IMG/VR virus record: IMGVR_UViG_3300046009_009705 | Coordinates: 1 to 21,805 of that record | Reading direction: 5' to 3' (one strand) | From: a virus | DNA: 21,805 bases | In this document: positions 8,748-15,914 of the stretch, in pieces | Numbering within the stretch: position 1 is the first letter of the stretch | Layout: the number at the start of each line of letters is the position of its first letter | Notes under the pieces: generated by a model | What the model was told of the DNA's origin: nothing | Database searches by the model: none | The model's input: only the letters and a program-made list of their open reading frames with translations | Made by a program: the position numbers and the translations under genes

Positions 8748-9173
8748 CTACAATTTGATATGTGATTTAGATATTCGACATTGAATTTGCCCGTTATACC
8801 ATAAATCAGGATGCTCAAGTACCTCATGTTGAAATTGCAACTTTGCTTCAAGGTAACTCATCATTCCTTTTGTTTTAATCAAATGTAGGATTTCCCTTTT
8901 AAAATTATCTTTCCCTAACAGTTCAACATCATTTTTCAATTCTATAGAACTGGAATAATAATCTTTCCAATCTGATTCACTGGTTTTTTTGACTCTTTTC
9001 TTTTTCTTTTCGCCACTTTTTAGGGTGACAGTTTTCATAGATGAAGTAAAAGAGTAAAATTGTTTTTTCCCGATATAGCGCCGCCCGTTAGTCAAGTTCG
9101 TTATCAAATATACGAATCCAATTGCATCGCCGATGTTTTCAGAAATGAATTCCTTTTCATTGTAATGCCACAT
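8748..9173 (-). CDS. GIY-YIG nuclease-like protein (Seg-like family)
   Basis: A 141-residue protein with a GIY-YIG nuclease plan: GFVYLITNLTNG (residues 19-30, standing for GIY), RRYIGKKQF (31-39, YIG), a lysine-rich inserted loop (46-64), then SDWKDYYSSS (67-76) and LEAKLQFQHEVL (108-119) with E109 as the probable metal-binding glutamate. The end, YNGQIQCRISKSHI, is like that of stand-alone GIY-YIG proteins common in aquatic T4-like phages. No DNA-recognition repeat (NUMOD) is present, unlike the gene at 14979-15701. Whether it is a homing enzyme or a resident nuclease is unknown. Its ribosome-binding site lies in the loop of a perfect 10-bp hairpin. Confidence 0.8.
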   Translation of the reverse strand: MWHYNEKEFISENIGDAIGFVYLITNLTNGRRYIGKKQFYSFTSSMKTVTLKSGEKKKKRVKKTSESDWKDYYSSSIELKNDVELLGKDNFKREILHLIKTKGMMSYLEAKLQFQHEVLEHPDLWYNGQIQCRISKSHIKL

Positions 9174-14615: not shown

Positions 14616-14828
14616 CTACCCTTTAGATTTTGCGAATTCTCTGATTTTTGAAGCTGGTAAATCGTGAATATCATATACACACTTAGGATCTGCTTGGCAA
14701 GCTTCAAACCTTTGCATATAGTAATTTCCTGGAACATCATCGGTTAATATTACGATAGACAAAATTACGCTAAAGAATAGCAAAATACTTGTGAAAATAA
14801 ACCATGGACTAGCAAAATAATTATACAT
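14616..14828 (-). CDS. Small one-pass membrane protein (70 aa)
   Basis: A 70-residue protein with one hydrophobic segment (about residues 8-29, WFIFTSILLFFSVILSIVIL) and a polar C-terminal half with two cysteines (C43, C50) that could form a disulfide. The topology cannot be fixed from sequence; a short N-terminal tail and disulfide-capable C-terminus suggest the latter lies in the periplasm. AAAGGA precedes the ATG. It is the first gene after the promoter at 14853-14882 and leads directly into primase. A holin, antiholin or superinfection-exclusion role would be a guess. Confidence 0.75.
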   Translation of the reverse strand: MYNYFASPWFIFTSILLFFSVILSIVILTDDVPGNYYMQRFEACQADPKCVYDIHDLPASKIREFAKSKG

Positions 14829-14852: not shown

Positions 14853-14882
14853 ATTATACGGCGAATTGAACCTAAAGTAAAG
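14853..14882 (-). promoter_or_regulatory. Early-type promoter
   Basis: On the minus strand, TTTACT (14876-14881) and TATAAT (14853-14858) are separated by 17 bp. It reads into the membrane protein and primase genes. Confidence 0.75.
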
Positions 14883-14894
14883 CTTTATTTTTAC
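14853..14894 (-). repeat. 42-bp direct repeat, left copy beside the endonuclease gene
   Basis: Compared base by base with 15726-15767, the outer 30 positions agree at 29 (ATTATACG, TAAAGTAAAG and [C/T]TTTATTTTTAC); the central 12 bases differ. Each copy holds one promoter. The pair brackets the only plus-strand gene in the window. Confidence 0.75.
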
Positions 14895-14908
14895 TAAATA
14901 TTTTGTAC

Positions 14909-14945
14909 AAAAAAAGCCACTCGCGGGATTGCAGTCCCCAGTGGC
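14909..14945 (-). terminator. Terminator hairpin facing the minus strand
   Basis: GCCACT (14916-14921) pairs with AGTGGC (14940-14945), and an inner GGGA/TCCC stem (14925-14928 with 14935-14938) lies within. Seven minus-strand Ts follow (14909-14915). No minus-strand gene ends here, so it would stop RNA that starts at 15726-15755 and runs antisense through the endonuclease gene, or it is a relic of a lost gene. Confidence 0.65.
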
Positions 14946-14978
14946 ACTAATCATTCCAACGATAAAAAGGATTCTATC

Positions 14979-15701
14979 ATGACCAGCACAAGTATTTATA
15001 CTCCTATCACACCCACCTATCTCTACATCAAACAGCATTCCATAACCAAAAAGAAATATTTCGGTAAGACTTCAAATTTAGACCCATACACATACAATGG
15101 CTCAGGTGTCTATTGGACCAATCACATTAAAGTCCACGGTATAGAACACATCGTTACTCTTTGGGTTTCAGAAGTCTACACAGACACATCTATCGTGGAG
15201 GTTGCCTTAAAATTTTCTATAGAAAACGATATAGTCAATTCTGATGAGTGGGCAAATCTAATTCCAGAAAACGGGTTAGATGGGTGTCCTTTTGGACAGA
15301 AACATACAGAAGAATCTAAGGCTAAACAATCTGCCGCTAAAAAGGGTAAACCATGTTCAGAAGAAACTAAAGCCAAAATATCTGCCGCTAAAAAGGGTAA
15401 ACCTCAATCAGAAGAAACTAAAGCCAAAATATCTGCCGCTAAAAAGGGTAAAACTCATACAGAAGAAGCTAAACCCAGAACGCGCAAACCATGTTCAGAA
15501 GAAACAAAGGCTAAAATGTCTGCTACCAACAAAGGTAAAATGCACACAGAAGAATCTAAAGTCAAAATGCGCAAACCTAAGTCAGATGAGCATAAAGCCA
15601 AAATATCTGCCGCTAATAAGGGTAAACCTTGTTCAGAAGAAACTAAAGCAAAAAGACAAGGTAAAAAACGTGGTCCATACAAAAAAACTTTACCCGCTTA
15701 A
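14979..15701 (+). CDS. GIY-YIG homing-type endonuclease with NUMOD3 repeats
   Basis: A selfish-type nuclease that cuts DNA lacking its gene. The 240-residue protein has an N-terminal GIY-YIG domain: TYLYIKQHSITKKKYFGKT (residues 13-31), then DPYTYNGSGVYWTNHIKVHG (35-54), a typical Seg-like layout. The C-terminal half (from about 106) is a row of NUMOD3 DNA-binding repeats (HTEESKAKQSAAKKGK, CSEETKAKISAAKKGK and others; at least six units), ending in a lysine-rich tail. It is the only plus-strand gene. AAGGA lies before the ATG. It is flanked by a 42-bp direct repeat, each with a minus-strand promoter, and a terminator faces the wrong way for it. No plus-strand promoter is evident. It is probably a mobile insertion. 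Confidence 0.9.
   Translation: MTSTSIYTPITPTYLYIKQHSITKKKYFGKTSNLDPYTYNGSGVYWTNHIKVHGIEHIVTLWVSEVYTDTSIVEVALKFSIENDIVNSDEWANLIPENGLDGCPFGQKHTEESKAKQSAAKKGKPCSEETKAKISAAKKGKPQSEETKAKISAAKKGKTHTEEAKPRTRKPCSEETKAKMSATNKGKMHTEESKVKMRKPKSDEHKAKISAANKGKPCSEETKAKRQGKKRGPYKKTLPA
15309..15652. repeat. Imperfect tandem repeats encoding the NUMOD3 units
   Basis: The stretch repeats a module of about 51 bp around TCTGCCGCTAAAAAGGGTAAA and TCAGAAGAAACTAAAGCCAAA, with some copies shortened. It reflects the protein repeats of the endonuclease and is a likely place for slippage or unequal crossing over. Confidence 0.8.
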
Positions 15702-15725
15702 CCTCAATTCACGCCCGACTAGGCT

Positions 15726-15755
15726 ATTATACGTGTTTGAGGACATAAAGTAAAG
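15726..15755 (-). promoter_or_regulatory. Early-type promoter reading antisense into the endonuclease gene
   Basis: On the minus strand, TTTACT (15749-15754) and TATAAT (15726-15731) are separated by 17 bp. Downstream on that strand lies only the antisense of the endonuclease gene, then the terminator at 14909-14945. Confidence 0.7.
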
Positions 15756-15767
15756 TTTTATTTTTAC
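15726..15767 (-). repeat. 42-bp direct repeat, right copy beside the endonuclease gene
   Basis: It pairs with 14853-14894 (29 of 30 outer positions identical). Confidence 0.75.
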
Positions 15768-15832: not shown

Positions 15833-15914
15833 ATTTTGTAAGTCATTGATTTATAACGGGTTTATATTTTAAGCATTTTTAATAAAAGCTAATAAAATCA
15901 ATAACTTACAAAAT
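15833..15914. repeat. 20-bp inverted repeat, one mismatch, 42-nt spacer
   Basis: The arm ATTTTGTAAGTCATTGATTT (15833-15852) and the arm AAATCAATAACTTACAAAAT (15895-15914) are complementary at 19 of 20 positions. The spacer is very AT-rich and can pair weakly. It lies in a gene-free stretch and could form a cruciform or RNA stem. No gene uses it. Confidence 0.7.

Follow-up and report, generated by a model that had tools for sequence, protein, structure and literature searches.

A conserved hairpin leader in front of unrelated homing endonuclease genes in T4-like environmental phages

Introduction

How a newly landed selfish endonuclease gene comes to be expressed at the right time without harm to the host phage is an old question in T4, where each endonuclease seemed to solve expression timing in its own way. 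Mobile regulatory cassettes combining an early promoter with a stem-loop terminator (PeSLs) have reportedly been described at gene-gain sites of phages RB49 and phi1.

The leaders of I-TevI, mobE and segB, which sequester the ribosome-binding site (RBS), are related in purpose to the leader presented here (PMC2988022, PMC3014915). I-TevI, I-TevII, I-TevIII, segB and Aeh1 mobE likewise have a late or middle promoter near the gene and a structured leader RNA, with late-restricted expression as the apparent purpose, but their RBS sequestration is gene-specific, whereas here the RBS is open and one leader serves both GIY-YIG and HNH endonucleases. Among known systems the closest is seg43(25) from Aeromonas phage 25, a free-standing endonuclease gene which, like the one studied here, has a very stable, non-sequestering hairpin just upstream of its RBS (PMC2988022). 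It is a single case in that paper, which describes no bulged hairpin, CTAATCATTC sequence or start block shared across families, and our comparison is by description only. In the open-access papers searched, no report was found of one leader common to unrelated endonuclease families. An antisense RNA over a homing endonuclease gene has a counterpart in CfrI of the T4-like cyanophage S-PM2 (PMC2984593), although CfrI is expressed and links psbA, while the antisense RNA considered here is only predicted, as a by-product of the insertion site.

Results and discussion

The endonuclease gene and its surroundings

The window (the whole stretch of DNA analysed, 21,805 nt or 21.8 kb, from IMG/VR record IMGVR_UViG_3300046009_009705) is, judging from its coding content, a piece of a T4-like phage genome. 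It encodes gp32-, gp59- and primase-like proteins according to profile matches, as well as proteins which we take from their ORF translations to be NrdA, NrdB and ThyX. Its primase comes closest, among named phages, to those of Methylophilales phage Melnitz and of cyanophages (approximately 39% identity). The ORF at 14979-15701 matches Pfam NUMOD3 (E=2e-21) and the PHROG homing endonuclease family phrog_314 (E=4e-26). NUMOD3 homology is found together with an insertion polymorphism relative to a related empty site, as for a homing endonuclease. A SegE-type GIY-YIG protein (Pfam SegE_GIY-YIG, 1e-38) is also encoded in the window, at 8748-9173 on the minus strand, in the prevailing gene orientation. 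The features of the locus are the following:

14853-14894, minus strand: left (downstream) early promoter P2, with TTTACT-17-TATAAT at 14881-14853
14893-14900, plus strand: late-promoter-like box ACTAAATA, a variant, where most relatives carry TATAAATA
14909-14945, minus strand: hairpin and U-tract read antisense, a probable intrinsic terminator for RNA from P1
14916-14945, plus strand: leader hairpin supported by covariation, with a 6-bp stem, a C / G:C / C bulge, an upper stem and a loop
14947-14956, plus strand: conserved leader sequence CTAATCATTC, one base past the hairpin
14964-14971, plus strand: Shine-Dalgarno region AAAAAGGA, outside the hairpin
14979-15001, plus strand: start-proximal block ATGACCAGCA-N4-TATTTATAC, covering codons 1-8, at which unrelated endonucleases cease to be homologous
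14979-15701, plus strand: free-standing homing endonuclease gene, GIY-YIG-like with NUMOD3 repeats by profile matches, 240 aa
15687-15694, no strand: approximate right insertion junction, from comparison with L004 and L005
15726-15767, minus strand: right (upstream) early promoter P1, with TTTACT-17-TATAAT at 15754-15726, facing the 3' end of the endonuclease gene

The first-pass annotation of this DNA had described a plus-strand GIY-YIG/NUMOD3 gene set as a mobile insertion between two direct repeats, each a minus-strand promoter, with the right one reading antisense through the gene. This description holds. The repeats 14853-14894 and 15726-15767 share 29 of their 30 outer bases (32 of 42 overall), both carry early-type TTTACT-17-TATAAT, relatives have empty sites, and by the arrangement of the sequence P1 reads through the endonuclease gene as far as the hairpin. 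No credible minus-strand gene is present in the window ORF list between the right promoter and the hairpin terminator. The two repeats are not private to this locus and appear from the sequence to be members of the early-promoter family of the phage, eight more perfect minus-strand TTTACT-16/17-TATAAT sites being found in the window (193, 2803, 3244, 4901, 5738, 7259, 8191 and 9681), though neither P1 nor P2 matches any of these at more than 27 of 42 positions.

Empty sites in relatives

Two relatives, L004 (85-90% DNA identity to the window) and L005 (approximately 77%), have no endonuclease gene and keep both tandem promoters, 89 and 88 bp apart, respectively, with no ORF between them and no terminator at this place. 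Since both retain the pair without the gene, the promoters are ancestral and were not duplicated by the insertion; nor was an ancestral early gene replaced by the mobile one. Comparison with gene-less relatives had been proposed as a check on the earlier reading; in L004 and L005 no gene stands at this place, and both promoter copies are present. The comparison thus provides a clean empty-site case, in which the flanking promoters are older than the insertion.

The alignment of L004 to the window runs up to 14881 and resumes from 15689, and this sequence comparison shows that the gene, hairpin and left arm arrived together and took the place of approximately 30-50 nt. On the left, the junction falls in or beside the P2 -35, which forms it together with the AT tract upstream. 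With the right junction at about 15687-15694, the last four residues of the protein (TLPA-stop) derive from recipient DNA, and the sequence of these codons is also present in L004 and L005. A C-terminal Cys/His motif, CPHCGKTGG..MKRWHFDNC, is carried by the related endonucleases of L016 and L018 and is absent from the window protein. Because its 3' end is truncated relative to these two, the window gene may be decaying.

The age of the promoters also bears on the proposal that the P1 antisense RNA, ended by the hairpin, has the function of keeping the endonuclease off during early infection. The window does contain the layout that this would require, and S-PM2 offers a precedent in CfrI, which is antisense to a homing endonuclease gene (PMC2984593). 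However, P1 is older than the endonuclease insertion, and just 3 of 87 leader-bearing endonuclease genes have an antisense-pointing early promoter at the 3' end (sense-pointing ones are equally many), so silencing is not general. The antisense RNA, if it exists, is therefore a by-product of the site, and we regard a silencing role as unlikely.

One leader architecture across environmental phages

Where homologues of the endonuclease lie among other genes, they come with the same left arm and with the same hairpin just before the start codon. A first pattern scan (TATAAATA..CRCG..CTAATCAT) returned many more loci, whose ORFs are not all homologous and mostly start with MTSxxIY. A second scan, CTAATCATTC-N8-30-ATGAYCAGC, which assumes neither promoter nor hairpin, found at least 108 stretches, and 72 distinct sequences were read out of the collected loci. 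In 68 of these 72 there is a near-perfect (5-6 bp) stem with the bulge motif, in one rigid architecture: 6-bp stem, C, purine, C, upper stem, loop, return strand, one base, CTAATCATTC. The purine between the bulged Cs usually pairs with a pyrimidine on the opposite strand of the stem. The order of the module as a whole is (late promoter) - 6-bp stem - C-bulge/R:Y/C-bulge - short stem - N-CTAATCATTC - SD - ATGACCAGCAN4TATTTAT, and it stands before some 100 different endonuclease ORFs of viral contigs, which represent at least two unrelated families (GIY-YIG and HNH). All leader copies come from environmental contigs; with exact scan patterns their counts are lower bounds, and the copies are not phylogenetically independent, though stems and ORFs differ widely.

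Covariation was assessed over 60 distinct sequences. All 11 pairs show changes on both sides, 94.8% of paired cells are complementary against 68.9% when shuffled, and the covariation score is 0.765 against 0.270, the signal being lost when the partner is slid. The stems are nearly free of G-U pairs, which is unusual for RNA and may point to use of both strands or to a role of the element as DNA. A covariance model matches the window at 14916-14956 with 57.1 bits, and turned up further leader variants in the collected loci. In the matches of at least 25 bits that were examined, the hairpin reads in the sense direction and an endonuclease-like ORF follows closely, the exceptions being a few short or truncated ORFs.

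The start-proximal block has the consensus CAGCA-N4-TA(T/C)(T/A)TAT across the class. One leader subtype has its ATG four codons later with the CAGC-N5-TAT position unchanged, and the constraint is therefore on the nucleic acid more than on the peptide. A leader base and a base of codon 2 are associated (CTAAT/ATGA 67, CTAAA/ATGT 25, CTAAA/ATGC 6, CTAAC/ATGA 1), which hints at UCAU-AUGA pairing, or may reflect block inheritance.

No Rfam family matched above its gathering threshold at the hairpin of the window or of seven other leader loci, eight named phage relatives of the endonuclease gave no covariance-model match, and blastn of the leader consensus against 50,697 phage records returned one weak, chance-level match, in a region without such a leader. 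In 257 Gb of cellular contigs, the CTAATCATTC..ATGAYCAGC scan gave 25 matches, 24 without a stem and one with the hairpin. A leader with an HNH endonuclease is carried by L213 (JAHFUM010000005.1), a 104 kb contig binned as Nitrosarchaeum, which is probably a misbinned phage contig.

Unrelated genes behind the same leader

Behind the leader, 93 distinct N-terminal domains were found: 61 GIY-YIG-like, 13 HNH, 12 of a second GIY-YIG-like kind, and 7 singletons. The hairpin, CTAATCATTC and the start-proximal block are thus shown by sequence comparison to be a conserved module common to unrelated endonuclease families. At one and the same phage locus, L249 and L343 (GIY-YIG) are about 92% identical to L327 (HNH) over 679 nt ending at codon 8, while L257 and L327 have only the 102-nt leader in common (95%). 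With the leader constant and the ORF different, the module is separable from the coding sequence, and these alignments show that it can persist at a site where one downstream coding sequence is exchanged for another. Such pairs of the same leader with different nucleases are natural swap experiments.

Swaps directly beside the hairpin, together with near-perfect Watson-Crick stems that have scarcely any G-U pairs, would also fit a DNA element, that is a single-strand or cruciform recombination site for the exchange of endonuclease genes. Against this, the position of the hairpin is fixed between promoter and start codon, with the Shine-Dalgarno region and the start block downstream, and the 3' ends of the endonuclease genes yielded no partner motif; we give this explanation little credence. 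A transposon-type 3' element shared by the endonucleases was likewise considered and rejected, as the leader-bearing genes showed no shared 3'-end element, whether transposon-like or a recombination partner.

Promoters and neighbouring genes

The late promoter is TATAAATA in T4 and KVP40, and NATAAATA in S-PM2 (PMC2984593). Of 97 leader copies, chosen regardless of promoter, 72 have TATAAATA no more than 60 nt from the stem, compared with 0.8% of control windows. ATAAATA is present in 80 of the 97, and CTAAATA in 12 of the 17 remaining, the window among them. In compact copies the stem begins 3-9 nt past TATAAATA, so that, if transcription starts as in T4, the late mRNA would begin with the hairpin or close to it. 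Such a position suggests protection of the mRNA or recognition by a factor.

A late promoter just upstream in most of the class (ACTAAATA as a variant in the window) is also what would be expected if the leader acted like those of I-TevI, mobE and segB, with the RBS sequestered in read-through RNA so that only late transcripts could be translated. One predicted fold of the longer window transcript does pair the late-promoter region with codons 4-7, and the association between leader base and codon 2 points in the same direction. However, the energy of duplexes formed by the promoter and start regions shows no gain over permuted pairs (-8.1 versus -7.8, sd 0.19), and the predicted accessibility of the start site is nearly equal in long (0.55) and late (0.58) transcripts. 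Leaders without TATAAATA retain the start block, the hairpin ends approximately 20 nt before the Shine-Dalgarno region and encloses neither this nor the start codon, and the arms show no coevolution. The permutation test did not support sequestration through base pairing between the late-promoter region and codons 4-8, and an RBS-sequestering leader appears improbable.

Of the 97 copies, 30 have an outward-directed early promoter within 150 nt on the 5' side, against 1.5% of controls, and a single copy has one directed toward the gene. By a simple ORF rule, the flanking gene is antisense to the endonuclease in 77 of 101 cases upstream and 65 of 87 downstream. In T4, all endonuclease genes except segD are co-oriented with their neighbours (PMC2988022), unlike the leader-class endonucleases, which are mostly antisense to theirs.

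The hairpin read from the other strand

On the minus strand, 14945-14909 forms a GC-rich hairpin followed by TTTTTTT (-15.8 kcal/mol), which a simple terminator scan missed because the stem is bulged. The first-pass annotation was right in placing a terminator-like element here, and overlooked what it is: from the sequence comparisons above, the conserved 5' leader of the endonuclease. It could be argued that the hairpin is a mere intrinsic terminator in a PeSL-like cassette, its place before the endonuclease being incidental. The resemblance is real, in that an early sigma-70-like promoter adjoins a stem-loop at a gene-gain site, with the terminator (14909-14945) beside the early promoter (14881-14853) on the minus strand; the U-tract (an A-tract before the stem on the plus strand) is present in the window and in 47 of 105 hairpin copies. 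It is, however, missing in over half of the copies, so the terminator is not conserved as in a PeSL, whereas copies with and without it alike keep the bulge pattern, the single base before CTAATCATTC and the block at the start codon. The examined hairpins of at least 25 bits are in sense orientation directly before endonuclease-like ORFs, a few truncated ones excepted, the empty sites have no terminator here, and in the searched loci no bulged hairpin was seen ending an early operon without an endonuclease nearby. The conserved unit is thus the sense leader of the endonuclease with its late promoter, terminator function being optional in contrast to PeSLs, and an incidental terminator seems very unlikely to account for it.

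A dependence of terminator ability on the orientation of the neighbours was rejected, presence of the A-tract showing no association with it (p=0.64 and 0.32). As the A-tract does not follow neighbour orientation, a role in antisense insulation is weakly supported.

A perfect TATAAATA is present on the minus strand at 14993-15000, inside codons 5-8 of the endonuclease gene, and with the terminator hairpin it could give an antisense RNA of approximately 75 nt over the start codon. As a feature of the class, a minus-strand late promoter in codons 5-8 (TATTTATA, the reverse complement of TATAAATA) was rejected because many copies have TATATAT, TACTTAT or TATGTAT there, and not TATTTAT.

A probable portable unit for late expression

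With the endonuclease gene inserted antisense between pre-existing tandem early promoters, the explanation that we consider probable is that the leader is a portable late-expression unit. A gp55-type late promoter would start an mRNA with the bulged hairpin as its first or nearly first element, and the hairpin would protect or regulate this late mRNA, so that late expression would remain available to endonucleases of any family, even after antisense insertion into an early region. Where the A-tract is present, as in the window, the hairpin may in addition halt early antisense RNA before it reaches the divergent early promoter and the next gene. In the window it would cut P1 off from the gene at 14616-14828, which P2 alone would then drive. 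That the late promoter of the window is itself the variant ACTAAATA counts against the portable late-expression reading.

We give even chances to the wider proposal that unrelated endonuclease families in T4-like environmental phages share and trade this leader, with the hairpin as a cis-acting RNA signal that one common factor, of the phage or of the host, would recognise, and with the expression module itself mobile, independently of the endonuclease that it serves. The solution to expression timing looks standardised and exchangeable, as unrelated nucleases use the same leader of roughly 100 nt, in most cases lying antisense to the adjacent genes, and often with an outward-facing early promoter immediately before them. 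The leader can serve as a signature for finding such endonuclease genes, and is a small RNA motif with strong covariation that is directly testable.

Other elements near the upstream promoter

One class of early promoter has a conserved transcribed start, TATAATAGCCTAGTCGGGCGTGAATTRAGGWTAAGCG, found at about 20 loci with differing downstream genes (window 15694-15731 on the minus strand, L004, L005, L016 and L053-L075). These promoters often have a second early promoter 75-90 nt further on, and in L016 TATAATAGCCTAGTCGGGCGTGAATTRAGGWTAAGCG also adjoins the 3' end of an endonuclease gene. It is possibly a leader RNA element or a homing target. Upstream of P1, a 250-bp non-coding gap contains a 20-nt inverted repeat (15833-15914, 95%, 42-nt spacer), which is kept in part in L004.
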